Source: Anaerolineales bacterium
Lineage (GTDB): Bacteria; Chloroflexota; Anaerolineae; Anaerolineales; UBA11579
Length of the DNA stretch: 64,000 nucleotides
Assembly (NCBI GenBank): GCA_021463845.1
Contig: JAJTXV010000003.1
Location: 62,001-126,000, forward strand
Direction: 5' to 3'
In this document: positions 7,041-37,703 of the stretch, piece after piece
How positions within the stretch are numbered: position 1 is the stretch's first letter
Layout of the letters: every line of letters starts with the position of its first letter
Translations under genes and position numbers: made by a program
Notes under the pieces: model-generated
Told to the model about the DNA's origin: nothing
The model's database searches: none
The model's input: only the letters and a program-made list of their open reading frames with translations

Positions 7041-8939
7041 ATGCTGAGCGAGGACCAACCCACCCGCAACTTGGATATCCCGGAGAATGCCACGCGCCAC
7101 AGCCAGCTGCGCCAGGGTGAGGTGCTGCAGGAGCGCTACGAGATCCAGGAGATCGTAGGCATCGGCGGCATGGGCTCGGTCTACCGCGCCCGCGACAAGA
7201 ACTTCAAAGCCATCCGCCTGGTGGCGATCAAGGAAATGATCAGCCAGGTCACCGACCCGCTGGTGCGCAAGAACATCTTCCAGATCTTCGAGCGCGAGGC
7301 CAACATCCTCGCCACACTGCGCCACCCTTCCATCCCGCGTATCTACGACTACTTCACCATTGGCGAACGCGCCTATCTGGTGCTGGAATTCATTCACGGC
7401 AAGAACCTGGAGCAGCTGCTGGCGGAGACCACCGGCTTCTTCCCCGAAGAGCAGGTGCTGGCCTGGGCGGTCGAGCTGTGCGATGTGCTGGACTATTTGC
7501 ACAGCCACAAGCCGGAACCGATCATCTTCCGTGACATCAAGCCGTCCAACATCATGAACACCCTGCAGAACCATATTGCCCTGGTGGATTTTGGTATCGC
7601 CAAGGTCTTTGAGTCCAAGCAGAAGAACACCATGGTGGGCACGCAGGGCTATTCCCCGCCGGACCAGTACCGCGGCGAGGCCACCCCCAAGGTGGACATC
7701 TACGCACTGGGCGCTACGCTGCACCACCTGCTGACCCTGCGTGACCCGCAACTGGAGGCGCCGTTCTCCTTCGGGGAACGCCTGATCGGCGAGATCAACC
7801 CCAACGTCAGCCGCGAGTTCGCCGCAGTGGTCGAGCGCGCCCTGGAGTACAAGCCAGAGGACCGCTACGCCAGCGCCATGGAAATGAAGGATGCGCTGAT
7901 CAATGTAGCCCGCAAGACCGGCACCCTGCTCAATCTGAGCATCCCCACCACGCTCAGCAGCGGCGCACCCAGCCGCGGTGTGGGCGTGAAGCCGCTGTGG
8001 AGCTTTGAAGCCGAAGACGAACTGCGCAGCTCGGCCACCTACCACGACGGCACGCTGTACATCGGCTGCTACGACAACAATCTGTACGCGGTGGACGCCG
8101 CCAACGGCGAGTTCAAGTGGAAATACCCCACCGACGGCGGCATCGCCAGCAAGCCGGCCATCTTCGAGAACAATATCTACTTCGGGTCGGAGGACAAGCG
8201 CCTGCACGTCATCTCGACCCGCTCCGGCAAGGTGGTGTGGACACACTACACCAACGGGCCGGTGCGCTCCTCGCCGCGCATTGCTGAGGGGCACGTGTTC
8301 ATCGGCTCAGACGACGGCAGCCTGCACGCCATCGGCCTCAGCAGCGGCCGCCTGGCCTGGCGCTCGGAGGCCGGTTCGCCGGTGCGCTCCACGCCGTGGG
8401 TCGGCAACGAGCACATCTACTTCGGCTCAGAGGCCGGCGATTTCACCGCCACTGACTTCCGCGGCGATGCCAAGTGGCGCTTCAAGGCCAAGCGCGCCAT
8501 TACCTCCTCGCCCGTGCTGCAGGACGGCGTGGTGTACTTCAACTCGATGGACGGCACGCTGTACGCTCTGGACGCCAACACCGGCTGGGCCGTGTGGCGC
8601 TTCCGCCTCGGCAAGGGCAGCATCTGCACCCCCGCCATCGCCGGTAATACGCTCTACACCGGCGCGGCCGACCACATCATCTACGCGATTGACACCCGCT
8701 CGGCCAAGGAGCTGTGGCGCTACACCACCGAGCACCAGGTCAACGGCTCGCCCATCGTGCACCGCGATGCAGTCTACTGCGGCTCGGTGGACGGCAGCCT
8801 GTACTGCCTGGACGCCGCCAGCGGGCGCATGCGCTGGCGCTACCAGACCGATGCGCCCATCACCGGAACCCCGGTGGCCCACGACGATATGATCTTCATT
8901 GGCTCAACCGACAAAAAACTGTATGCCTTCCTGGCATAA
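7041..8939 (+). CDS. Serine/threonine kinase with C-terminal eight-repeat PQQ beta-propeller
   Basis: Residues 32 to about 290 are a Hanks-type kinase: glycine loop GIGGMGSVY, AIKE lysine, catalytic FRDIKPSN, DFG in ALVDFGIAKVF, and the activation-segment motif GTQGYSPPDQY. A short linker with no membrane segment leads to residues 320-632. There, eight consecutive units of about 39 residues each begin with W and carry the PQQ/BamB-like pattern xYFGSxDGxLYALDAxTG. Eight units are enough to close a propeller. Such propellers usually work outside the membrane, yet no signal or membrane helix is present, so this one should be cytoplasmic. It heads an operon with a PP2C phosphatase and an FHA protein. 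The ligand or partner of the propeller is unknown. Confidence 0.93.
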   Translation: MLSEDQPTRNLDIPENATRHSQLRQGEVLQERYEIQEIVGIGGMGSVYRARDKNFKAIRLVAIKEMISQVTDPLVRKNIFQIFEREANILATLRHPSIPRIYDYFTIGERAYLVLEFIHGKNLEQLLAETTGFFPEEQVLAWAVELCDVLDYLHSHKPEPIIFRDIKPSNIMNTLQNHIALVDFGIAKVFESKQKNTMVGTQGYSPPDQYRGEATPKVDIYALGATLHHLLTLRDPQLEAPFSFGERLIGEINPNVSREFAAVVERALEYKPEDRYASAMEMKDALINVARKTGTLLNLSIPTTLSSGAPSRGVGVKPLWSFEAEDELRSSATYHDGTLYIGCYDNNLYAVDAANGEFKWKYPTDGGIASKPAIFENNIYFGSEDKRLHVISTRSGKVVWTHYTNGPVRSSPRIAEGHVFIGSDDGSLHAIGLSSGRLAWRSEAGSPVRSTPWVGNEHIYFGSEAGDFTATDFRGDAKWRFKAKRAITSSPVLQDGVVYFNSMDGTLYALDANTGWAVWRFRLGKGSICTPAIAGNTLYTGAADHIIYAIDTRSAKELWRYTTEHQVNGSPIVHRDAVYCGSVDGSLYCLDAASGRMRWRYQTDAPITGTPVAHDDMIFIGSTDKKLYAFLA

Positions 8940-8960
8940 CGCTGAATACAAGAGAGCGCA

Positions 8961-9866
8961 ATGGTCAACTTCCTGAAGAAGCTGTTTCCCAAGAAAAAGA
9001 GCGGCTCGGCCCCACTGCCAAGCAATGCGGCCACCGCGCCGCTGAGTGAAGCGCAGCTGTGGGATCTGGGCAGCGGCGAGCGGCCGGGCAAGTACATTCA
9101 CTTGATCGCCGGCAGTGCGCTGGACCAGGGGCAGCGCCGTGAGAACAACGAAGACAGCCTGCTGTGCTTCAACGGCACGCTGGGCGCGGGCGACCTGGCG
9201 ACGCCTTTTGGCGTCTATGTGGTCGCCGATGGCATGGGCGGCCATCGCAGCGGCGAGATCGCCAGCGAGACCGCCGTGCGCGCCCTGGGCCAGTACCTGA
9301 TGCAGCACCTGTACAAGCCGCTGTTCGGGCCTGACCCGCAGCCCGCCAATGAATCGCTGCGCGAGATCATGGAAGGCGCGGTGAGCGAAGCCCACCGCGC
9401 CGTCAAGCGCGCCGCCCCCGGCGGCGGTTGCACGCTGACCGCCGCCCTGGTGGTCGGCACCCAGCTGGTGATCGCGCACCTGGGTGACAGCCGCGCCTAC
9501 ATGGTGCACCGTGACGGGCGCATGGAGCAGCTCACCAAGGACCACACCCTGGTCAAACGTCTTCAGGAAATGGGCCAGCTCAGCGAGGAAGAAGCCGCCG
9601 ACCATCCGCAAAAATCCGTGCTGTACCGCGCCCTCGGCCAGGGAGATGTGGTCCAGGCCGACTTCTTCACCGGCAGCCTCTCGCCCAACAGCTTCCTGCT
9701 GCTGTGCTCAGATGGCTTGTGGGGTTTTGTGGAAGAGGATGACATCCAGACCATCATCAATGCCACCACCAGCCCCTACCTGGCCTGCTTGCATCTTGTC
9801 GAAGCCGCCAATGCGGCCGGCGGCGCCGACAACATTGCCGTCATTCTGGCCCGGCTGGTCCACTAA
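8961..9866 (+). CDS. PP2C-family Ser/Thr phosphatase
   Basis: It removes phosphate from Ser/Thr residues and probably opposes the kinase encoded just upstream. The metal-site and family motifs are all visible: RENNEDS, VVADGMGGH, GDSRAY, LLCSDGLWG and GGADNIAVIL. The domain covers residues 50-300. The first 50 residues are a basic and low-complexity leader (KKLFPKKKSG). There is no membrane helix, unlike PstP. The gap to the kinase gene is 21 bases and contains GAGAGC, so the two are co-transcribed. Confidence 0.94.
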   Translation: MVNFLKKLFPKKKSGSAPLPSNAATAPLSEAQLWDLGSGERPGKYIHLIAGSALDQGQRRENNEDSLLCFNGTLGAGDLATPFGVYVVADGMGGHRSGEIASETAVRALGQYLMQHLYKPLFGPDPQPANESLREIMEGAVSEAHRAVKRAAPGGGCTLTAALVVGTQLVIAHLGDSRAYMVHRDGRMEQLTKDHTLVKRLQEMGQLSEEEAADHPQKSVLYRALGQGDVVQADFFTGSLSPNSFLLLCSDGLWGFVEEDDIQTIINATTSPYLACLHLVEAANAAGGADNIAVILARLVH

Positions 9867-9921
9867 CAAACTCGCACCCATGGGGGCATGGCCGGTCAGG
9901 ATTCAGCTACACTGTTAGTTC

Positions 9922-11433
9922 ATGGCAACCAGCTATCTGGATAACTACTACGCCCGCCTGGGCATCCCACGGGATGTCAGCCAGGACGAGATCCAGCGCG
10001 CCTACCGCCGCGCCGCCCGCCAGTTCCACCCAGACGCCAACAAGAACACCGGCGCCAGCGAGCTGTTCCTGCTGGTGCAGGAAGCCTTCGAGACCCTGCA
10101 AGACCCGCCGCGCCGCCGCGAATACGACGCCACCCTGCCGGAGGACATTGAGGCGCCCCCGGCGCTGATGGTGAATGCGCTCTACAGCCGCCCGCAGATC
10201 ACGCCGGATGAATCCGGCCAGGTCATCTACGTCTTGCTTGACCTCAAGCCCAGCGCCAGCGAAGAAGAACGACGGCGCAAGCCGCCGCTCAACGTGGCGC
10301 TGGTGCTGGACACCTCAACCTCAATGGCGGGAGCGCGGCTGGGCCAGGTGGTCAAGGCGGCCAGCCATTTTGTCTCGCAACTCAGCGAGCACGACATCCT
10401 CTCGGTCATCACTTTCAATGACCGCGCCCAAGTGGTGGTGCCGGCCCAGCCGGGCCTAGATATCCAGCGCCTGATCTCACGCCTCAGCACGCTGCAGACC
10501 AGCGGCGGCACCGAGATCTATCAGGGCCTCAAAGCCGGCCTGGTGGAAGTGCAGCGCCACCTGCGCCCCAGCGCCACCAACCACATTGTGCTGATCACCG
10601 ATGGCCGCACCTATGGAGACGAGGCCGCCTGCCTGGAGCTGGCCGGCCAGGCCGCCCAGCAGGGCATCCCCATCAGCGCCATCGGCATTGGCGACGAGTG
10701 GAACGAAGAATTCGTTGACCAGTTGGTGGCCAAATCGGGCGGCAGCAGCCTGTATGCTGATAAAAGCGCCGATATCCACACCGTGCTGGAAAATCGCCTA
10801 CATACCCTCAGCCTGAGCTATGCCAACAACGTCAAACTGAGCTACGAGAACGGCGCCATGAGCAAGCTCAATTATGTCTTCCGCCTCTCGCCCGACCTGG
10901 GGCCGGTGTCGTTGCCCCAGTTGGACAGTAGCCAGCCCATCTTCCTCGGCAACGTGCCGCAGAACGACAGCTTGAGCGTGCTGCTGGAGTTTGAGCTTGA
11001 CAGCCGCGGCGCGCACGATGGCTACATCACGCTGGCCGAGGGCCGCCTGAGCCTGGACGTACCCACCCGCCCCATCCCGTCCAACTCGGCCCGCTTCCAG
11101 CTCACCCGCCAGATCTCAGAGATCGTCGAGGCCGAAGCGCCGCCCAATACGCTGATCAGCGCCATCGGCAAGCTCTCGCTGTATCGCATGCAGGAGCGCG
11201 CCCGCCAGGAGCTGGAGCAGGGCGACCCGGAAGCCGCCGCCAAGCGCATGCGCATGCTGGCCACGCGGCTGCTCTCGCAAGGCCAGCGCAGCCTGGCGCG
11301 CACCGTGCTGCTGGCGGCTGAGGATCTGAAAGAGAACGAAGCGCTGGGTGCGAAAGAGGGAAAACAGATAAAATACGGCACACGCGCCCTGATCGACGAC
11401 ACCGAAGGGCGCGGGAAACGAGGCTCACGGTGA
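9922..11433 (+). CDS. J-domain protein fused to a von Willebrand A domain
   Basis: Residues 5-72 are a DnaJ J domain with the Hsp70-stimulating HPD triad (RQFHPDANKN) and YDATLPE at its end. Residues from about 120 to 300 are a VWA domain with a complete metal-ion-dependent adhesion site (LDTSTSM, the Thr/Gly-rich SGGTEIY, and TDGRTYGDE). A beta-rich and then helical C-terminal region follows. There is no signal peptide. Its place between a phosphatase and an FHA reader suggests an adaptor that brings a DnaK-type chaperone to a phospho-regulated partner (inference). A TACACT box ends eight bases before the ATG and no ribosome site is seen, so it may also have its own promoter. Confidence 0.9.
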   Translation: MATSYLDNYYARLGIPRDVSQDEIQRAYRRAARQFHPDANKNTGASELFLLVQEAFETLQDPPRRREYDATLPEDIEAPPALMVNALYSRPQITPDESGQVIYVLLDLKPSASEEERRRKPPLNVALVLDTSTSMAGARLGQVVKAASHFVSQLSEHDILSVITFNDRAQVVVPAQPGLDIQRLISRLSTLQTSGGTEIYQGLKAGLVEVQRHLRPSATNHIVLITDGRTYGDEAACLELAGQAAQQGIPISAIGIGDEWNEEFVDQLVAKSGGSSLYADKSADIHTVLENRLHTLSLSYANNVKLSYENGAMSKLNYVFRLSPDLGPVSLPQLDSSQPIFLGNVPQNDSLSVLLEFELDSRGAHDGYITLAEGRLSLDVPTRPIPSNSARFQLTRQISEIVEAEAPPNTLISAIGKLSLYRMQERARQELEQGDPEAAAKRMRMLATRLLSQGQRSLARTVLLAAEDLKENEALGAKEGKQIKYGTRALIDDTEGRGKRGSR

Positions 11434-11939
11434 TCGTCGTTTGCAGCGGCTGCGGCAAAAACCAACAACAGGAAGACATATTCTGCCCGGACTGCGGCAC
11501 CAAGCTGATCCAGGACGAGGGTCTGCGCACCATGCCGATGGATAACTCCCCGGGTGGGCTGACCACCACTCGCCTGCAAACCAGCGGCACCCTGATGCGC
11601 CCCAGCGGCGCGGCCCGCCTGAACCTGCACATCATCCGCAGCGGGCAAATTTTGCCGCTCGAAGGGCCGGGCGAATTCATTGTCGGCCGGGTCAGCTCCG
11701 GCCAATCCATCCTGCCGGATGTGGACCTGGAGCCGTATGCGGCCTACGAGTCGGGCGTTTCGCGCCTGCATGCCCGCATCCGCATCCAGGAAGGCGAGAT
11801 CTCGATCATGGACCTGGGCTCAGCCAACGGCACCCGTCTCAACAACGAGAAGCTTTCTCCCCATCAGACCTACTCCCTGAACAACAAAGATGTCCTGCGC
11901 TTTGGACGCCTCAGCATCCAGGCGCTCACCGGCGAATAG
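11430..11939 (+). CDS. Zinc-ribbon / FHA-domain protein
   Basis: The N terminus has a two-knuckle zinc ribbon (CSGCGKNQ...CPDCGTKL). Residues 70-169 form an FHA phosphothreonine-binding domain with IVGR, SRLHARI and LGSANGTRLN. FHA domains read phosphothreonine made by Hanks kinases, so this is the likely reader for the kinase at 7041. The start is GTG in a 4-base overlap with the stop of the J-VWA gene, which indicates translational coupling. The zinc-ribbon/FHA pairing without a membrane segment implies a soluble adaptor. Confidence 0.9.
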   Translation: MIVVCSGCGKNQQQEDIFCPDCGTKLIQDEGLRTMPMDNSPGGLTTTRLQTSGTLMRPSGAARLNLHIIRSGQILPLEGPGEFIVGRVSSGQSILPDVDLEPYAAYESGVSRLHARIRIQEGEISIMDLGSANGTRLNNEKLSPHQTYSLNNKDVLRFGRLSIQALTGE

Positions 11940-11946
11940 AGGCACG

Positions 11947-12189
11947 ATGCCCCACACTGTTCTCATCCATCTGCACAATGAAGACCCTGTGGTCGGCGAG
12001 ATCGAAGAGCTGCCCACTCCCACTGACACCATGCTGCGCGTCATGAACCCACGCAAGCGCGACGGCAAGGACTTGCACTATCTGCAAAATGACGTGACCA
12101 CCGTGTTCTGGCCCTGGACGCGCATCAGCTTTGTCGAGTTGCTGCCGAGCGGCGGCGAAGACGAGATCATCGGCTTTGTGAGGGAATGA
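11947..12189 (+). CDS. Small conserved-looking protein of unknown function
   Basis: This 80-residue acidic protein (MPHTVLIHLHNEDPVVGEIEELP...) starts at an ATG with GAGG eight bases upstream and seven bases after the FHA gene. Its tight position makes it the last gene of the kinase-phosphatase operon. The sequence suggests a small beta-rich fold with DTMLRVMNPRKRDGKDLHYL and a WPWTRISFVE segment. No family was recognised and no function is proposed beyond membership of the signalling operon. Confidence 0.75.
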   Translation: MPHTVLIHLHNEDPVVGEIEELPTPTDTMLRVMNPRKRDGKDLHYLQNDVTTVFWPWTRISFVELLPSGGEDEIIGFVRE

Positions 12190-12190
12190 T

Positions 12191-12261
12191 CCACAGATAA
12201 ACACAGATTTTAAAAGCGGATGTATCCGATTCATCTTTTTAAGCATCCGTGTTCATCTGTG
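12191..12261. repeat. Inverted repeat, CACAGATAAACACAG type
   Basis: CACAGATAAACAC...GGATG on the left faces CATCC-GTGTTCATCTGTG on the right, around an AT-rich loop. The motif is typical of a dispersed intergenic repeat. It lies between the signalling operon and the response-regulator gene and could serve as an mRNA 3' end for the operon. Confidence 0.6.
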
Positions 12262-12292
12262 TGAGTGCTTTGACCAATTTGAGCTATGACTT

Positions 12293-13069
12293 ATGACTGA
12301 ATCGCAACTGACCAACAAACGCATCCTGGTGGTGGATGATGAAGAGCGAATTGTGCGCTTCATCCGCCTTAACCTGGAGCAGGACGGCTTCCAGGTGGAG
12401 GAAGCCTTCTCCGGCAAAAAGGCGATGGACAAGCTGCGCCAAAGCCTGCCTGACCTGATCGTGCTGGATGTGATGCTGCCGGACATTGACGGCTTCGAGG
12501 TGCTGCGCCTGATCCGCGAGAACAATGATGTGCCCGTGATCATGCTCACCGCCAAGTCGGAGGAGGATGACCGCGTGCGCGGCCTGGAGCTGGGCGCGGA
12601 TGACTATGTCACCAAGCCCTTCAGCCCGCGCGAGCTGGTCAGCCGGGTACGGGCCGTGCTGCGCCGCACCGAGACCCAGCGCGGCAGCGAGGGCATCATC
12701 CAGGTGGATGAGCGCCTCAAGCTGGATTTTGACCGCCGTGAAGTATGGGTGGACGGCAAGCTGGTGAAGCTGCGCCCCACCGAGTACCGCTTGCTATATC
12801 ATCTGGTGCAAAATGCCGGCTGGGTGGTCACCCATGACCAGATATTGGCCAAGGTGTGGGGCTACGAGTACCGTGATGAGCCGCACTATGTGCGCCTGTA
12901 CGTCAATTACCTGCGTGAAAAGCTGGAGAAAGACCCGGCCAACCCCAAATACATCCTCACCGAGCGCGGCGTCGGCTACCGCTTTGTAGACTTCAAGCGA
13001 GAGAATGAGCAGGCGAAAGACGCTCCTGCGAAAGAATCTTCCAAAGAAGCAAAAAAGAGCAAAAAGTAG
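12293..13069 (+). CDS. OmpR/PhoB-type response regulator, orphan
   Basis: The receiver domain (residues 8-125) has the acidic pocket VVDDEE, the phospho-acceptor Asp in [10 protein letters not shown], the conserved Thr in MLTAKS, and the Lys in YVTKPF. A winged-helix DNA-binding domain follows ([21 protein letters not shown]...[11 protein letters not shown]...GVGYRF). The C-terminal tail is an unusual charged run of about 25 residues rich in Lys, Glu and Ala. No histidine kinase gene is adjacent, so its partner lies elsewhere. Cross-talk with the nearby Ser/Thr kinase operon is possible but not shown. Confidence 0.92.
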
Positions 13070-13107
13070 AACTGTCTGAAGCAACGGCAACAGCCATTGC
13101 AAAAAAA

Positions 13108-13133
13108 GGAGCCGCTTTTAGCGGCTCTTTTTG
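13108..13133. terminator. Rho-independent terminator after the response regulator
   Basis: GGAGCCGC-TTTTA-GCGGCTCTTTTTG, preceded by A7 on the opposite side, can end both the response-regulator transcript and the convergent DUF971 transcript. Confidence 0.85.
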
Positions 13134-13484
13134 TTACTTGCCTTTGGCGGCGTGCTTGTCCATTTCATCGGCCAGCGCCAGCAGGTAATGCCAGTTGTAG
13201 ATGCCGTACTTGTGCCCGTCTTCCCACTCCACATTGATGGCGTAGTTGCCCACCGCTTCAATGCCCACCAGACGGGTGGCGTTGGCGCTCATCAGCGGGA
13301 TGATGAAGACGCCCGGGTCGGGCTCAGGCTTCATGTTCTCGTGGCCGCCGCGGCACTGGGCACACGGGCAGGCGTTGCGCAGCAGCTCGAACGGGTAGCT
13401 GGCCACACGGCCGCTGCTCCACTCGATGGTCAAACGCGCCTGGGCGCGGTTGGCGGTGATGGAAGTGGGAATAGTTTCAGTCAT
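13134..13484 (-). CDS. DUF971 (GBBH-like N-terminal) domain protein
   Basis: At 116 residues this is a stand-alone DUF971 protein. The family pattern is complete: IEWSSGRVASYPFELLRNACPCAQCRGG, then VGNYAINVEWEDGHKYGIYNWHYLLAL. Members occur alone, with iron-sulfur carrier proteins, or fused to gamma-butyrobetaine-hydroxylase-type enzymes. The CPCAQC cysteines suggest metal or cluster contact, but the function is not established. It is a single gene on the minus strand, sharing a terminator with the response regulator. Confidence 0.85.
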   Translation of the reverse strand: MTETIPTSITANRAQARLTIEWSSGRVASYPFELLRNACPCAQCRGGHENMKPEPDPGVFIIPLMSANATRLVGIEAVGNYAINVEWEDGHKYGIYNWHYLLALADEMDKHAAKGK

Positions 13485-13516
13485 GATCTTGCAATAGTAA
13501 TGGGTAAGTTGTGATT

Positions 13517-13550
13517 AGAGATTGGAGATTAAATCTCGATTCTCCAATCT
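13517..13550. repeat. Inverted repeat, AGAGATTGGAGATT type (copy 1)
   Basis: AGATTGGAGA and TCTCCAATCT face each other across a short loop. A longer, perfect copy of the same element occurs at 19837-19884 after degV. Confidence 0.7.
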
Positions 13551-13556
13551 CGGTTT

Positions 13557-14060
13557 TTACTCACTAACCACCACTTCCAGATACGTGCCGGCCGCCCAGC
13601 CGGCGCGGGCCGCATCCACCGGGGTGACGATATACCACCAGGTGAGCCCGTCGACCTCACGCGGGCCGTCGCGCACCACAAAGACTTCGGCATCATAGGC
13701 CAGGAACTGCACATTGGTGGAAAGCCCCGGCGCATTGCGGATATTCAGGCCGCGGCCCTCAGTGCCCACGATCTGCACATAGGCGCCCACGCCCATTTGC
13801 CCGCTGGCGGGCGGCTCGAAGGACGGCGTGGGCGTGGATGTGGGCACCAGGGTGGCGGTTGGTGCGGGCGTATTGGTGGGGCCGGGGATCCAGGTCAGCG
13901 CGGCCGCACGGTCTTCGACCGTGCTGGCCGGCATGTAGGCGAACATGGCGTACACGCCGGCTGCGCCGAGCACTATGGCCAGGCCCACCGCGGTCAGCAG
14001 CACCTTGGGCGGCACATAGGTGCGCAGCCAGTTGAGCAGGTCTCGGAATTCCACGCGCAC
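13557..14060 (-). CDS. Membrane-anchored SH3b-domain protein
   Basis: One N-terminal membrane helix (KVLLTAVGLAIVLGAAGVYAMF) is followed by a Pro/Thr-rich spacer of the kind common in Anaerolineae surface proteins. A bacterial SH3 domain of about 80 residues follows (GLNIRNAPGLSTNVQFL, WWYIVTPVDAARAGWAAGTYLE). Such domains bind cell-wall or other surface ligands; the ligand is unknown. The start is GTG at 14060, and a second in-frame GTG is two codons downstream. It follows the SUMF1-type lipoprotein gene on the same strand after a 39-base gap. Confidence 0.8.
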   Translation of the reverse strand: MRVEFRDLLNWLRTYVPPKVLLTAVGLAIVLGAAGVYAMFAYMPASTVEDRAAALTWIPGPTNTPAPTATLVPTSTPTPSFEPPASGQMGVGAYVQIVGTEGRGLNIRNAPGLSTNVQFLAYDAEVFVVRDGPREVDGLTWWYIVTPVDAARAGWAAGTYLEVVVSE

Positions 14061-14099
14061 AAGGATACTACGCGGCGGGCTGAGTTGCGCAGCGCTGGC

Positions 14100-14864
14100 T
14101 TATTGGCCCCAGCTAGTCAAGGCGAAATCGTCGAACACGCAGCGGAAACCGCGCCCCTCTCCCGCCGAGCCCGGCTCATGCGATAAGCGAGTATAGGTCA
14201 GGCTGTATACGGCGGGGTCATACCAGGCGGCCCCGCGCAGCACTACATGCGCTTCATCGAACCAATCGTCGATCCATTCGCGCACATTGCCGCCCATATC
14301 CAGCACATCGTAAGGGCTGTGCCCCTGCGTAAAGGAACCGACTGCAGCAGTAGTGCCTTGGTAGCCGCGCCCCACATGGGCGCGCAGAGTAATGTCTTCG
14401 GTTTCACCCCAGGGGAAGCTGTTGGCATTCTCGCCGCGGGCGGCCTTCTCCCACTCCAGCTCATGCGGCAGGCGCCCTCCAGCCCAGTGACAGAAATCCT
14501 GGGCTTGATACCAGTTGATGTATACCACCGGATGGTTGGCGTACTCAGGCAGGTAATAGTAGGGGTTGCGCTCCGGGCCTATGGGATACTCGCAGGCGCC
14601 AGCCCCCACGCACTTGTGGTACTGCGCATTGGTGACCTGGGTGCGCGAGATCCAGTAGCCTGGCAACGCGGCACGGGCCATTTGAAGGGCAAAGACGCTG
14701 CCTGGGGTATTCTCCGGGGCCTGGCCAAAAATGAACTCCCCGGCGGGGATATAGACTTCGAGTTGCTCGGTACGGGGATTGAGCCGTATGTACGAACGGC
14801 AGGATGGCAAAAAACCCAGAAGGATACAGGTTGACCCAATTACTAGCCATTTCTTGAATTGCAT
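14100..14864 (-). CDS. SUMF1/FGE-sulfatase-type lipoprotein
   Basis: ATG at 14864 gives a signal peptide ending in a lipobox (GFLPSC), so this is a predicted lipoprotein. The rest is a formylglycine-generating-enzyme-like (SUMF1) fold: PAGEFIFGQ, WISRTQVTNAQYHKC, HPVVYINWYQAQDFCHWAGGRLPHELEWEKAARG, PWG, DMGGNVREWIDDWF, VLRGAAWYD and GFRC. Most bacterial members are not sulfatase activators but binding or scaffold proteins. Here the function is open, and the active-site cysteine pair of true FGE cannot be confirmed. The gene diverges from the kinase gene at 14973. Confidence 0.85.
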   Translation of the reverse strand: MQFKKWLVIGSTCILLGFLPSCRSYIRLNPRTEQLEVYIPAGEFIFGQAPENTPGSVFALQMARAALPGYWISRTQVTNAQYHKCVGAGACEYPIGPERNPYYYLPEYANHPVVYINWYQAQDFCHWAGGRLPHELEWEKAARGENANSFPWGETEDITLRAHVGRGYQGTTAAVGSFTQGHSPYDVLDMGGNVREWIDDWFDEAHVVLRGAAWYDPAVYSLTYTRLSHEPGSAGEGRGFRCVFDDFALTSWGQ

Positions 14865-14972
14865 ACAGTTGCCCGCAAAAGATGAGCGCAGTCTACGCAC
14901 AAAGCACGAACTTGTCAATCATCCATATCCTGGCTGAAAACAGGCGTTTTGCCGCGATAAAATCGCCATGTT

Positions 14973-15989
14973 ATGTCTGAGAAACATCTGCTGAACAAGC
15001 GTTACCAGCTGCAAGACTTCCTGGAAAAAGGCGGCATGGCCAGCGTGTACCGCGGCCGCGACCTGATGCTGGAGCGCGATGTAGCCATCAAAGTGCTGCG
15101 CGAGGACTACTCCAAGGACGCCGGCTTCCGTGAGCGCTTCCGCCAGGAGGCCAAAGCCGCCGCCAACCTGAGCCACAGCAACATCGTCACCGTATACGAC
15201 TTCGGCTACGACGAGGAGCGCCTGTTCATCGTCATGGAGTATGTGCCCGGCACCGACCTGAACACCCTCATCAAGCAAAAACGTGTCTATTCGCTGGAGG
15301 AGGGCATCCCCCTCGTGATCCAGGCCTGCAAGGGGCTGGGCTATGCCCACCGGGCCGGCCTGGTGCACTGCGACATCAAACCTCACAACTTTCTGGTGAC
15401 GCCGGACGGGCGCGTCAAGGTGACCGACTTCGGCATTGCCCGCGCCCTGGCCTCGATCAACCCGCGCGAGGAGCAGGAGATCGTGTGGGGCTCACCGCAA
15501 TACTTCTCGCCCGAGCAGGCGGCCGGCAGCGCCCCCTCACCCGCTTCAGATGTGTACAGCATGGGCGTGATCATGTACCTGATGTTCACCGGCCAGCTGC
15601 CCTTCACCAGCAAGACCCCCGCCGAGCTGAGCCAGCAGCACCGTACAGAGCTGCCGGTGCCGCCCAACCAGCTCAACCCCAACATTCCGCCGGCGCTCAA
15701 CGAGATCATGCTGAAGGTGCTCTCCAAGGAGCCCTCGGCCCGCTACCGGGCGGCTGACCAGCTCGGGCGCGTCCTGCTCACCTTCGCCGCGCCGCAGATC
15801 GCCGCCGAACGGGCGCAGGAAGCCGCCACCATGAGCGCGGCCGCCGCAGACCTGCAGCCGGAGCCAAAAGAGCAGGGCCAGACTGACTGGGTGGCCGTGG
15901 CGCTGGGGCTGCTGGCCGCGCTAGCGGTTGGCGGCCTGCTGCCGTTCTGGATGTGGGTCTATCTGGTCTACAACCCGCCAATTCAATAA
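14973..15989 (+). CDS. Membrane-tethered Ser/Thr protein kinase with HCD instead of HRD
   Basis: This is a Hanks-type kinase: GGMASVYRG, AIKVLRED lysine, DFG in VTDFGIAR, and the activation segment GSPQYFSPEQ. The catalytic loop reads HCDIKPHN, so the HRD arginine is cysteine. Such non-RD kinases usually do not depend on activation-loop phosphorylation. A spacer of about 40 residues leads to a single C-terminal membrane helix (VALGLLAALAVGGLLPFWMWVYLVY) with only five residues after it. It therefore lacks the PASTA or other external sensor seen in PknB-type kinases. A TAAAAT box lies nine bases before the ATG. Confidence 0.92.
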   Translation: MSEKHLLNKRYQLQDFLEKGGMASVYRGRDLMLERDVAIKVLREDYSKDAGFRERFRQEAKAAANLSHSNIVTVYDFGYDEERLFIVMEYVPGTDLNTLIKQKRVYSLEEGIPLVIQACKGLGYAHRAGLVHCDIKPHNFLVTPDGRVKVTDFGIARALASINPREEQEIVWGSPQYFSPEQAAGSAPSPASDVYSMGVIMYLMFTGQLPFTSKTPAELSQQHRTELPVPPNQLNPNIPPALNEIMLKVLSKEPSARYRAADQLGRVLLTFAAPQIAAERAQEAATMSAAAADLQPEPKEQGQTDWVAVALGLLAALAVGGLLPFWMWVYLVYNPPIQ

Positions 15990-32972: not shown

Positions 32973-33749
32973 ATGAGCCAGTTGCACCGTCTGGAAGCGC
33001 GCTTGCAGCGATTGATCGAAGAAGGCACGGCGCGTTTGTTCTCCACCCATGACACCAAGGCCGTGTTGGCTTCCCAATTGATCGAAGCCATGCAGGCCGA
33101 AGTCCAGTTCGCCGGCGGCGACAGGCTCCAGGCGCCAGGCACCTACACCATCCTGGCGCACCCCGAGCACGCCAGCGGGCTGCGCGCCAACGCCAGCCTG
33201 CTCGACGAGCTGGGTGGCGCCCTGCGCCACGCCGCCGCCGAATCCGGCATCGCCATGGCTGGCGAGCTGGTGCTGCACGTGGCCCCGCAGGACGGGCTCG
33301 CCGAAGGCGAGTTCCGCGTCCGCGCCGCGGGTGTGGGCGAGAGCCTGAGCACCACCCAGAGCCTGGACGCTGACGCCAGCGCCACCGGGGCCGAAGTGCA
33401 GATCCCGGTCGGCGCCTTTCTCATCGTGGCCGGCTCCGAAGTGGTGCCCCTGACCCACGCCATCATCAACATTGGCCGCAAGAACGACAACCAGCTGGTG
33501 ATCGAGCACCCGCAGGTCTCCCGCCGCCACGCCCAGCTGCGCGCCATCGGCGGGCACTATCACTTCTTTGACCTGGGCTCCACCGGTGGCACGCGCATCA
33601 ACGGCGCCGAAGCCCGCAGCGCCATATTGCTGGCCGGCGACGTGATCCAGCTGGCCGGCGTGGTGCCGCTCATCTACGGGCAGGACGCCGCCACCAGCAA
33701 GGCGCAGGAGACCCAGGAGATCAACACCAGCGCCAATTCCGTGAAGTGA
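32973..33749 (+). CDS. FhaA-like protein: DUF3662 domain plus FHA domain
   Basis: The first 110 residues match the DUF3662 domain found before FHA in mycobacterial FhaA (LEARLQRLIEEGTARLF, LIEAMQAEVQF...GTYTILAHPEH). The C-terminal FHA domain has INIGRKNDNQLVIEHPQVSRRHAQLR and LGSTGGTRINGAE. FhaA proteins bind phosphorylated cell-wall targets. It is followed by an fhaB-like gene, mtnP and a rodA fusion, echoing the actinobacterial fhaA-fhaB-pstP-rodA-pbpA cluster without kinase or phosphatase genes. Confidence 0.88.
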   Translation: MSQLHRLEARLQRLIEEGTARLFSTHDTKAVLASQLIEAMQAEVQFAGGDRLQAPGTYTILAHPEHASGLRANASLLDELGGALRHAAAESGIAMAGELVLHVAPQDGLAEGEFRVRAAGVGESLSTTQSLDADASATGAEVQIPVGAFLIVAGSEVVPLTHAIINIGRKNDNQLVIEHPQVSRRHAQLRAIGGHYHFFDLGSTGGTRINGAEARSAILLAGDVIQLAGVVPLIYGQDAATSKAQETQEINTSANSVK

Positions 33750-34213
33750 TGGCAGAGCTCCCCGCATACATACTCCTGGGCCTGCGGGCCTTGATGGCCC
33801 TGGCCCTGTACGGCTTCCTGGCCTGGTGCTTCCTCACGCTGTGGCGTGAGCTCAAGCAGCAGGCCCTCAACCTGGCCCGCCAGCGCATCCCCGCCCTGCT
33901 GGTGACGCAGGACGCCGCCAGCGAGCAGCTGCGCTTCGCCACCGCTGAGGTGACGCTGGGGCGTCACCCCAGCTGCGAGTGGGTGCTGGCCGACGAGACC
34001 GTCTCGTCCCGCCATGCCCGCCTGGTGTTCCACCACGACCATTGGTGGCTCGAGGACCTGGGCTCGCGCAACGGCACTTTCCTCAACGGCGATGCGCTCA
34101 GCGCCCCAGTGGTGTTAACCAATCAGGACCATATTCGCTGCGGCCAGGTGAGCTTCACCCTCCACATCGAAGCCCTGCCGCAGGCCGCACCGCAGACACA
34201 GGAGCAAGCATGA
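33749..34213 (+). CDS. FhaB-like membrane-anchored FHA protein
   Basis: An N-terminal membrane helix (YILLGLRALMALALYGFLAWCFLTL) is followed by a cytoplasmic FHA domain with VTLGRHPSCEWVLADETVSSRHARL and LGSRNGTFLNGD. This is the FhaB layout, which links phosphothreonine signals to division and wall proteins. The ATG at 33749 overlaps the fhaA stop by one base; a GTG one codon earlier is the alternative. Its own stop overlaps mtnP by four bases. Confidence 0.88.
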   Translation: MAELPAYILLGLRALMALALYGFLAWCFLTLWRELKQQALNLARQRIPALLVTQDAASEQLRFATAEVTLGRHPSCEWVLADETVSSRHARLVFHHDHWWLEDLGSRNGTFLNGDALSAPVVLTNQDHIRCGQVSFTLHIEALPQAAPQTQEQA

Positions 34214-35073
34214 ACCCAGCCCCCGAACTCGCCATCATTGGAGGCTCCGGCCTGTACGACATGCCGGGCCTGGAAGACAAGCGCGAGCACAACGTGGATA
34301 CGCCCTTCGGCGAACCCAGCTCGCCCGTGGTGGTGGGCACGCTGGAGGGGCGGCGGGTGGCCTTCCTGGCCCGCCACGGCGTCAAGCACACCATCTCGCC
34401 CACCCACGTCAATTACCGCGCCAACATCTACGCGCTTAAATCGCTGGGCGTGCGCTGGATTGTGGCGGTCAGCGCCTGCGGCTCACTGCGCGAGGATTTT
34501 GAGCCCGGCCATATTGTGGTGCCCAGCCAGCTTTTCGATCTGACCCGCCACCGCGTGAATTCGTTCTTCGATGACCCCGGGCTGGTGGCGCATATCGGCG
34601 TGGCCGACCCGTTCTGCAACAGCCTGAGCCAGCAAGTCTATGCCGCTTCCACCGCCGCCGGCGCCACGGCCCACATGGGCGGCGACTTCATCACAGTCGA
34701 GGGGCCGCGCTTCTCCACTCGAGCCGAGTCGAATATCTATCGCTCCTGGGGCCTTTCCATCATCGGCATGACCACTTCGCCCGAAGCGTTCCTGGCCCGC
34801 GAAGCCGAGCTGTGCTACGCGGTAATGGCCCACGTGACCGACTATGACGTCTGGCACCAGGAGCCGGTCAGCGTGGATATGGTCGTGCGCACCCTGCACC
34901 AAAACACGCGCACCGCGCAGGAAGCCATCCGCCAGCTGGCCGCCGGGCTGCAGGCGCCAGAGTGCGCCTGCGACCAGGCGCTGGCCCCGGCCCTGATCAC
35001 CCACAAGCGCAATATCGACCCAGCCGCCCGCAAGAAGCTGGGCCTGCTGGTTGAGAAATATTTGACCGAATGA
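34210..35073 (+). CDS. mtnP: S-methyl-5'-thioadenosine phosphorylase
   Basis: It splits methylthioadenosine to adenine and methylthioribose-1-phosphate in methionine salvage. IIGGSGLYDMPGL, the phosphate-site SPVVVGTLEGRRVAFLARHGVKHTISPTHVNYRANIYALKSLGV, and MGGDFITVEGPRFSTRAES are typical of MtnP rather than of plain purine nucleoside phosphorylase. The length is 287. ATGA overlaps on both sides place it firmly inside the fha-rodA operon, an unexpected context. A purine nucleoside phosphorylase paralogue is at 49894. Confidence 0.92.
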   Translation: MNPAPELAIIGGSGLYDMPGLEDKREHNVDTPFGEPSSPVVVGTLEGRRVAFLARHGVKHTISPTHVNYRANIYALKSLGVRWIVAVSACGSLREDFEPGHIVVPSQLFDLTRHRVNSFFDDPGLVAHIGVADPFCNSLSQQVYAASTAAGATAHMGGDFITVEGPRFSTRAESNIYRSWGLSIIGMTTSPEAFLAREAELCYAVMAHVTDYDVWHQEPVSVDMVVRTLHQNTRTAQEAIRQLAAGLQAPECACDQALAPALITHKRNIDPAARKKLGLLVEKYLTE

Positions 35074-37703
35074 AAGTCCCCCGCCCGCTGAGGCGCCTGC
35101 TGCCCGCCAGCGTCTCCGCCAGCCTGCTACGGCTGGCGGCGGCCTTCCTGGGCCTGTTTGCGCTGGCGCTGACCCTCTCGCCTGCTGTGCGCCAGCGCAG
35201 CCTGCTGCCGCTGGCCGAGCTGCGCTGGGCGCACTGGCTGGGCGTGGTGGTCTGGGTGCTGGCCCTCTTCTGGCTCGACCGGCGCACGCGTGAGCGCCTG
35301 CCCAACCGTGACCCCTTCATCATCCCCGTGGCCGGCCTGCTGGCGGGCTGGGGCCTGCTGACCATCTGGCGTCTGACCTTTGAGTTCGGCCTGCGCCAGA
35401 CCGCCTGGCTGGCGGTCAGCTGCGCGCTGTTCGTGCTGGCCCTGCGCCTGCGTGAGCGCATTCTGCCCATGCTGCGCCGCTACAAGTACGTCTGGCTGCT
35501 GGCCGGCCTGCTCATCACCGCCCTCACTTTTCTGTTCGGCACCAACCCCTCCGGCATCGGGCCGGATCTGTGGCTGGGCTGCTGCGGGCTCTACTTCCAG
35601 CCGTCTGAGCTGCTCAAACTATTGCTGATAATCTACCTGGCCGCTTACCTGGCTGATCGCCAGCCGCTGATGACCGGCCTGCTGCCGCTGCTGGCGCCGA
35701 CCGCAGTGATGACCGGCGCGGTGCTGCTGCTGTTGATGGTCCAGCGCGATCTCGGCACAGCCTGGGTCTTTATCTTCATCTATACCATCCTGATCTACAT
35801 CGCCGCCGGCAAGCGGCGCGTGCTGCTGGCCAGCGCCGTGGTATTGATATTGGCCATGGTCGCCGGCTATGAGCTGGTGGGCCTGGTGCACGCCCGCATT
35901 GACAGCTGGCTGAATCCTTGGGTAGACCCCACCAATCGCTCGTACCAGATCGTGCAGGCGCTAATGGCCATCGCCGCCGGCGGCATGTTTGGCCGCGGGC
36001 CAGGCCTCGGCAGCCCCGGCTTTGTGCCGGTGGCCCACAGTGACTTCATCTACACCTCCATCGTGGAGGAGAGCGGCCTGTTGGGCGCCATCGCCCTGCT
36101 GGCGCTGATCGCTTTCCTGGTGGTGCGCGCCCTGCGCATTTCGCTGCACGCCCGCGATGCCTACCAGCGCTACCTCGCCATCGGCCTGGCGGCCTACATC
36201 GCCAGCCAGAGTCTGCTCATCATCGGCGGCAACATCCGCATGCTGCCGCTCACCGGCGTCACCCTGCCGTTCGTGTCCTACGGCGGGTCTTCCATGCTGA
36301 TCTCGTTCTTTGCCCTGTTGCTGCTGTGCCTGGTCAGCCATGATGGCGTGCATCGCGCCGCGCCGGTGCTCAACAGCCGCCCCACCCTGATCATCGCCGG
36401 CCTGCTGCTGGGCGCCTTCGCGCTGGCCGCCGTCATCACCGGATGGTGGGGTGTGGCCCGCGGGCCAGACCTGCTGACCCGCACCGACAATGCCCGCCGC
36501 GGCCTGTCTGACCGCTACGTGTGGCGCGGCGCTCTGCTCGACCGCGATTTTCAGCTGCTCTCACGCACCGGCGGCAGCGCCAGTCAATACACGCGTGACT
36601 ATGTCGAGCCGAGCCTGGGCAACGTATTGGGCTACTCGCATCCGCAATTCGGCCAGTCCGGTCTGGAGGATGGGCTCGACCCGATCCTGCGCGGCGAGGA
36701 GCGCCAGCCCGCCTGGGGCTTGTGGCTCAGCCATATCCTGTATGGCCAACCCTCGCCCGGGCTGGATGTGCAACTCAGTCTGGACCGCGAGCTTACGCTG
36801 CAAAGCATGCAGGCGCTGGAGGGCCAGCGCGGCGCAGCCGTGGTGATGGACGCCGCCAGCGGCGAGGTGCTGGCGCTGGCCTCGCAGCCCGGTTTCAACG
36901 CCAGCACGGTGGGCGAGGACTGGCAAAGCCTGCTGGAGAGCGAATATTCGCCGCTGATGAACCGGGCCGTGCAGGGCGCCTACCCGCCCGGCGGCGTGCT
37001 GGGGCCCTGGCTGCTGGCCGCCGCCCGCAATCAGGACCTGCTGCCCGAGCCGGAACTTGAAACCAGCTACCTGCTCAACGGCACAACCCTTGAATGCACC
37101 CAGCCGCCCAGCGAAATGGAATGGGATGCGTTGATCGCCGCAGCCTGCCCGGGTGCGCTGGCCCAACTGGGTCTGGCGCTGGGCGAGCAGAACTTGCTGA
37201 CCCTATACAGCGCGCTGGGCTTGTACACCGCGCCGTCTGTGCCGCTGAGGCAGCCCAGCTTCGCCGCGCCGGCCAGCCTGCCGCGCCCGGGCGAGGCCGC
37301 CACTGGCCAGGCCGGCATGCTGGTCAGCCCGCTGCAGATGGCGCGCGTGGCCGCTACGCTCAGCAATGGCGGCCAGCTGCCGGCCGCCCAGCTTGCGCTG
37401 GCGGTGAAAGACGCCAGCGGTGAGTGGCAGCCCTACACTGAGCCGAGCGCCGCCCAAGCCGTGCTCACCAGCGCCGCCGCCTTCAGCCAGGCCCAGCGCC
37501 TGGCCGCCGAAGATGCGCCGATCTGGGAACTGCGCACCACGGCCCAAGGCGCCAGCGGGCTGCACTACACCTGGTATTTGGCCGGCAGCCTAAGCCGCGG
37601 CAGCCAGCCGGCCCGCGTGGTGGTCGTGCTGCTGGAAGGCAGCAGCCCGCAGCAGGCCGCCGCCATCGGGCGTCAAGTTCTGCTGACCGCCCTGGGCGAA
37701 TAG
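35070..37703 (+). CDS. RodA/FtsW glycosyltransferase fused to a pseudo-transpeptidase (PbpA-like) domain
   Basis: Residues 1-450 are a SEDS peptidoglycan polymerase with about ten membrane helices. Conserved SEDS segments are SWLNPWVDPTNRSYQIVQALMAIAAGG, PVAHSDFIYTSIVEESGLLG and LPFVSYGGSSML. After one more helix, residues 470-877 follow the layout of mycobacterial PbpA (AAVVMDAASGEVLALASQPGFNAS, NRAVQGAYPPG, SPLQMARVAATLSNGG, YTWYLAG). All three penicillin-binding motifs are lost. The SxxK serine and lysine are Gly642 and Gly645 (PPGGVLG), SxN reads ACP near 692-694, and KTG is replaced by TTAQG at 823-827. The PBP part is thus predicted to be inactive and may regulate the fused polymerase. 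ATGA overlap with mtnP. Confidence 0.9.
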   Translation: MKVPRPLRRLLPASVSASLLRLAAAFLGLFALALTLSPAVRQRSLLPLAELRWAHWLGVVVWVLALFWLDRRTRERLPNRDPFIIPVAGLLAGWGLLTIWRLTFEFGLRQTAWLAVSCALFVLALRLRERILPMLRRYKYVWLLAGLLITALTFLFGTNPSGIGPDLWLGCCGLYFQPSELLKLLLIIYLAAYLADRQPLMTGLLPLLAPTAVMTGAVLLLLMVQRDLGTAWVFIFIYTILIYIAAGKRRVLLASAVVLILAMVAGYELVGLVHARIDSWLNPWVDPTNRSYQIVQALMAIAAGGMFGRGPGLGSPGFVPVAHSDFIYTSIVEESGLLGAIALLALIAFLVVRALRISLHARDAYQRYLAIGLAAYIASQSLLIIGGNIRMLPLTGVTLPFVSYGGSSMLISFFALLLLCLVSHDGVHRAAPVLNSRPTLIIAGLLLGAFALAAVITGWWGVARGPDLLTRTDNARRGLSDRYVWRGALLDRDFQLLSRTGGSASQYTRDYVEPSLGNVLGYSHPQFGQSGLEDGLDPILRGEERQPAWGLWLSHILYGQPSPGLDVQLSLDRELTLQSMQALEGQRGAAVVMDAASGEVLALASQPGFNASTVGEDWQSLLESEYSPLMNRAVQGAYPPGGVLGPWLLAAARNQDLLPEPELETSYLLNGTTLECTQPPSEMEWDALIAAACPGALAQLGLALGEQNLLTLYSALGLYTAPSVPLRQPSFAAPASLPRPGEAATGQAGMLVSPLQMARVAATLSNGGQLPAAQLALAVKDASGEWQPYTEPSAAQAVLTSAAAFSQAQRLAAEDAPIWELRTTAQGASGLHYTWYLAGSLSRGSQPARVVVVLLEGSSPQQAAAIGRQVLLTALGE

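Follow-up and report, generated by a model that had tools for sequence, protein, structure and literature searches.

In actinobacteria, rodA and pbpA lie in a cluster with the order fhaA-fhaB-pstP-rodA-pbpA-pknA-pknB. This fhaA-to-pknB locus is the subject of at least part of PMC6554272. The dependence of SEDS polymerases on class B penicillin-binding proteins (bPBPs) is well described: FtsW and RodA require a bPBP partner for polymerization in vitro, and the position of the transpeptidase (TP) domain gates RodA (PMC10257715). Changes in the pedestal of PBP2 activate RodA, and Escherichia coli RodA running with an inhibited PBP2 leads to a toxic futile cycle (PMC6207328). In Bacillus subtilis, division can proceed with an inactive PBP 2B, transpeptidation then being provided by PBP 3 (PMC5656894). 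Moreover, fusions of SEDS and PBP in a single open reading frame (ORF) are on record (PMC10449877, which cites a genome paper by McLeod as reference 18).

The Anaerolineales locus studied here resembles each of these systems in part. Like the RodA–PBP2 and FtsW–FtsI synthases (PDB 6PL5, 8TJ3, and 8BH1), it combines a SEDS protein, which matches by sequence and keeps its catalytic residues, with a bPBP; unlike theirs, this bPBP is covalently attached and lacks SxxK, SxN, and KTG. The Mycobacterium tuberculosis PbpA/RodA cluster offers the closest solved fold and also has FhaA and FhaB genes upstream, but PbpA is active and separate there, whereas here it is dead and fused, a gene for S-methyl-5'-thioadenosine phosphorylase (MTAP) lies in the operon, and the kinases and phosphatase lie outside it. 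The known single-ORF fusions share the joining of SEDS and PBP halves in one polypeptide; however, those that we found in L047, L061, and L211 (two MAGs of Actinomycetota and one Chloroflexota genome from a different class), which are separate fusion events, keep all three motifs. In B. subtilis carrying PBP 2B S309A together with PBP 3, a dead bPBP likewise fills a structural role while another PBP cross-links, but that is a laboratory mutant of one protein rather than a natural clade, and the present genome has a MecA_N-type PBP, a candidate for the cross-linking role. We looked in the open-licence literature for a natural class-wide pseudo-PBP partner, fused SEDS, and Chloroflexota SEDS, and found no such description. 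SEDS–PBP fusions being already known, what appears to be new is the natural, class-wide dead partner.

Architecture and Catalytic Residues of the Fusion

The features of the locus are collected in table 1, with positions in the window, that is, the whole stretch of 64,000 nucleotides that was analyzed. The SEDS half matched PF01098 with an E value of 3e-70 (237 bits against a cut-off of 26.4), and the TP domain matched PF00905 at residues 588–794 (E 2e-15), while the PBP_dimer_2 match at residues 499–564 (23.9 bits) was under its cut-off of 27 (all Pfam). In the AlphaFold2 model (mean pLDDT 92.2, pTM 0.81), the SEDS helices are followed by a linker of about 12 residues, the PBP transmembrane helix, the pedestal, and the TP fold. 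The preliminary description had proposed structure modeling as a check, and the PBP half indeed keeps a PbpA-type fold: its top-ranked solved structure was M. tuberculosis PbpA (3lo7; Z 43.0, rmsd 2.6 over 373 residues, 26% identity), tied within 1 Z with an E. lenta homologue (4mnr, Z 42.1). TP fold, pedestal, and membrane anchor are all present in the model, with Z of about 39–43 to solved class B PBPs.

Table 1. Features of the fusion gene and its operon (positions in the window)
Feature	Position	Strand	Basis or remark
SEDS-PbpA* fusion gene, 877 aa, uninterrupted ORF	35070..37703	+	Single reading frame encoding both halves
SEDS (RodA/FtsW) glycosyltransferase domain, residues 104-424	35379..36341	+	Pfam PF01098 (FTSW_RODA_SPOVE)
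SEDS Asp325 within HSDF	36042..36044	+	D in 105/106 dead-partner SEDS rows, remaining row unresolved X
PBP transmembrane anchor helix, residues 437-463, preceded by ~12-residue linker	36378..36458	+	AlphaFold2 model
PBP pedestal / dimerization region, residues ~464-585	36459..36824	+	PBP_dimer_2 match below cut-off; no relaxation versus active partners
Pseudo-transpeptidase domain, residues 586-877	36825..37700	+	Pfam PF00905; M. tuberculosis PbpA fold
Site of lost SxxK, G642-V643-L644-G645	36993..37004	+	Alignment with active partners
Site of lost SxN, A692-C693-P694	37143..37151	+	Alignment with active partners
Site of lost KTG, L821-R822-T823	37530..37538	+	Alignment with active partners
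FhaA-like protein (FhaA_N + FHA), 258 aa, first gene of operon	32973..33749	+	PF12401, PF00498
FhaB-like membrane FHA protein, 155 aa, 4-base overlap with FhaA gene	33746..34213	+	PF00498; NCBIfam FhaB_Rv0019c below cut-off
MTAP, 287 aa, 4-base overlaps on both sides	34210..35073	+	TIGR01694 over cut-off

None of the three class B motifs is found in the fusion (GVLG, ACP, and LRT in their place). The six columns S, K, S, N, K, and G are occupied by these residues in 100% of the active Chloroflexota partners, and the T of KTG in 95%; the fusion reads G642, G645, A692, P694, L821, and T823 at the invariant columns and R822 at the 95% column. Thus, the loss of SxxK, SxN, and KTG reported in the preliminary description stands, but its placement of the former KTG at TTAQG (823–827) was two residues late. 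Among the dead partners, the positions of the serine, the lysine, and KTG are filled by non-constant residues, and the whole SxN region is missing from 45 proteins. Where this region is retained, a pair of cysteines, C676 and C693, is present in 61 of 62 proteins, and one could guess at a disulfide.

In the SEDS half, D325, E180, D227, and R276 are retained in essentially every dead-partner SEDS, the K183 position is K or R, and the fusion itself has all five residues. By an alignment made by eye, we take Asp325 to correspond to D297 of E. coli FtsW and D262 of RodA. The SEDS half is presumably active as a polymerase.

Distribution of Dead Partners and Order of Events

With the full protein as query, 298 genomes from the class and 301 from the phylum were searched, and 120 regions were retrieved in addition to 80 named loci; the loci were picked by similarity to the query, so that the following counts, made per distinct genome with activity called from the motifs in aligned columns, are not a census. 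The survey of Anaerolineae for conserved loss of SxxK that the preliminary description had proposed supported its view: all 67 fused partners were dead, and no fusion with intact SxxK, SxN, and KTG occurred among the close homologues. The complete genome of Leptolinea sp. HRD-7 also carries a dead fusion. The same SEDS lineage has 41 unfused partners in the class, of which 32 were dead, 8 were active, and 1 was partially deleted. In the rest of the phylum, 28 unfused partners and 1 fused partner were active, 1 fused partner was dead, and 1 row was truncated at the end of its contig, and in other phyla all 41 partners (39 unfused and 2 fused) were active. Taken together, the domains, the motif columns, and this survey bear out the proposal that a catalytically dead PBP is covalently joined to a SEDS polymerase. 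One genome of the same order, assembled in a single contig (G253), has no fusion, its best match (E 1e-33) being at the level of an ordinary RodA/FtsW; thus, the system can be lost.

In trees built from the SEDS domain alone, dead partners formed one clade (81 rows, SH-aLRT 98 in the larger tree; 47 rows, UFBoot 98 and SH-aLRT 78 in the careful tree), and the lineages just outside it (L181, L187/L193, and L139/L186) were active and unfused. A single clade of all fused dead proteins was rejected (AU p ~1e-29), and so was a common origin for every dead partner when L210 is counted among them (AU p 0.002); L210 and the part-deleted L184 are therefore counted as separate losses. Fusion first and decay later is not favored, since the 81-row clade includes 29 dead, unfused rows and parsimony within it requires 6 fusions, or 10 fissions given a fused ancestor. 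The trees thus indicate one old main loss and at least two further ones (L210 and L184), followed by repeated fusion. In contrast to the picture given in the preliminary description, the loss came before fusion and is independent of it. At five loci (L123, L125, L129, L132, and L133), the genes of the dead pair lie in one frame with a single stop codon between them, and losing this codon could fuse them. The clade and its relatives span graded states, from active and unfused through partners that are unfused and either partly deleted or dead to dead fusions and dead partners whose active-site segment is deleted. The unfused partner L184, sister to the fully active L181, has an in-frame deletion of about 97 amino acids that removes SxxK and SxN and spares KTG, and is a possible intermediate.

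Between close fusions, Nei–Gojobori dN/dS, where computable and with some dS near saturation, was about 0.07–0.31 for the SEDS domain, 0.04–0.30 for the pedestal, and 0.07–0.37 for the dead TP half. Because 67 fusions share the loss and dN/dS is well below 1, the dead fusion is more than a product of chance. At matched SEDS distance (0.45–0.55; pairs not independent), the mean protein distance of the pedestal was 0.603 in dead versus 0.625 in active partners, that of the N-terminal TP part 0.544 versus 0.497, and that of the C-terminal TP part 0.754 versus 0.596. Conservation of several pedestal residues was higher in the dead clade than among active relatives, including N474 (100% vs. 84%), D473 (90% vs. 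27%), R471 (90% vs. 46%), R541 (91% vs. 42%), and G531 (97% vs. 66%). The former active-site half is partly deleted in many families, and a relative that lacks some 70 residues in the SxN region nevertheless gives a confident model (pLDDT 93.7, pTM 0.89). Purifying selection persists, constraint has moved to the pedestal, and the former active-site half is relaxed. The TP half being under purifying selection, it may have functions beyond holding the pedestal.

Proposed Role of the Dead Partner

We consider it probable that the dead PbpA (PbpA*) is an obligatory, noncatalytic structural or allosteric subunit of its SEDS polymerase, the product being cross-linked in trans. Its transmembrane helix and pedestal would keep the SEDS protein in place and activate it, which in RodA–PBP2 and FtsW–FtsI is done by an active bPBP, PbpA* would itself perform no cross-linking, the glycan from the fused SEDS would be cross-linked by other transpeptidases of the cell, and the FHA proteins may couple the fusion to Ser/Thr phosphorylation. 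The preliminary description had suggested an allosteric activator; the constrained pedestal, the relaxed or deleted active-site half, and the retained SEDS residues fit this suggestion, and we infer an activating subunit based on this pattern and on the RodA/FtsW and PBP 2B precedents.

Candidates for cross-linking are present. The source genome has three SEDS genes and five TP-domain genes. In addition to the fused SEDS, it encodes a RodA paired with PBP2 and an FtsW paired with FtsI, and all of these are intact. The other four transpeptidases (FtsI-like, PBP2-like, MecA_N-type, and class A-like) keep SxxK, SxN, and KTG, and there are five YkuD L,D-transpeptidases; thus, the fused partner is the sole dead one, and cross-linkers are available in trans. 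The MecA_N-type protein (L005) consists of MecA_N, PBP_dimer, and transpeptidase domains. A PBP of this type was found in 87 of 93 dead-partner genomes of the class versus 81 of 198 without a characterized third pair, a contrast that phylogeny confounds and whose comparison group was not checked singly. For these reasons, its recruitment as the trans cross-linker is a lead.

The main rival to an activating subunit is that PbpA* serves as an autoinhibitory or sensing domain, with the SEDS protein held closed and opened by binding of peptidoglycan or a partner. The retained fold, the purifying selection on the TP half, and the FHA genes in the operon would suit such a brake, and closure of the TP domain at interface II represses polymerization in Thermus thermophilus and E. 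coli RodA–PBP2 (PMC10257715). Nevertheless, we regard this as unlikely: much of the former active-site region is deleted in many relatives, contrary to what a conserved ligand pocket would require, and constraint has been retained most strongly by the pedestal. It is more doubtful still that the fused SEDS makes glycan not meant for cross-linking, such as short or soluble strands or a peptidoglycan-like layer, for which a transpeptidase partner is dispensable. That it is a third SEDS beside two intact pairs would agree with this, but its catalytic residues are canonical, and the cluster partners sought (FhaA, FhaB, and MTAP only) include no export or modification genes.

Residual catalysis or beta-lactam binding through noncanonical residues could be argued from the retained fold and the near invariance of C676 and C693; with serine, lysine, and KTG replaced by non-constant residues and the SxN region so often absent, we hold it to be very improbable. 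As for a decaying gene or an artefact of assembly or annotation, the motif loss itself is all that would suggest one, and the chance of it is negligible: assembly error, frameshift, and recent decay are ruled out by the 67 genomes, the complete Leptolinea genome, and dN/dS, and the main loss is old.

Overall, the balance tips slightly toward a class-wide Anaerolineae SEDS synthase whose dedicated bPBP is a pseudoenzyme with an activating function only, polymerization and cross-linking being uncoupled in nature. Point mutants and beta-lactams have so far been used to ask whether activation by a bPBP can be separated from its catalysis; the PbpA* clade looks like a natural separation of the two, made by evolution, and its graded states show what part of the PBP a SEDS polymerase needs. 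If this is true, beta-lactams that act on its own partner would leave the synthase unaffected, and its cross-links would be supplied in trans. It also raises the question of what protects these cells from the futile cycle seen in E. coli upon PBP2 inhibition; given that cycle, an uncoupled SEDS should need a safeguard, and none was seen in this analysis.

Operon and Window Context

The fusion is the fourth and last of a series of overlapping genes. The two FHA genes noticed alongside it in the preliminary description proved to be FhaA-like and FhaB-like, with MTAP between this pair and the fusion. Searches with single sequences, which undercount, found homologues of FhaA and FhaB flanking active SEDS–PBP pairs too, and MTAP beside many dead and some active pairs. 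Because active pairs have the same neighbors, the FHA/MTAP context is older than the motif loss, and, in contrast to the picture in the preliminary description, the dead form shares its FHA/kinase context with active relatives. A scan for promoters and terminators gave nothing exceeding chance.

Two Ser/Thr kinases and one PP2C phosphatase lie outside the operon at 7041–15989, 17–26 kb upstream in the window. At 7041–9866 (+ strand), a kinase with a C-terminal PQQ/BamB-like beta-propeller is followed by a PP2C phosphatase; these two could be the writer and eraser that act on the FHA proteins. Downstream of a kinase and a PP2C phosphatase, at 9922–11433 (+ strand), is a gene for a 503-aa protein with an N-terminal DnaJ domain (residues 8–69) followed by a VWA domain (124–287).
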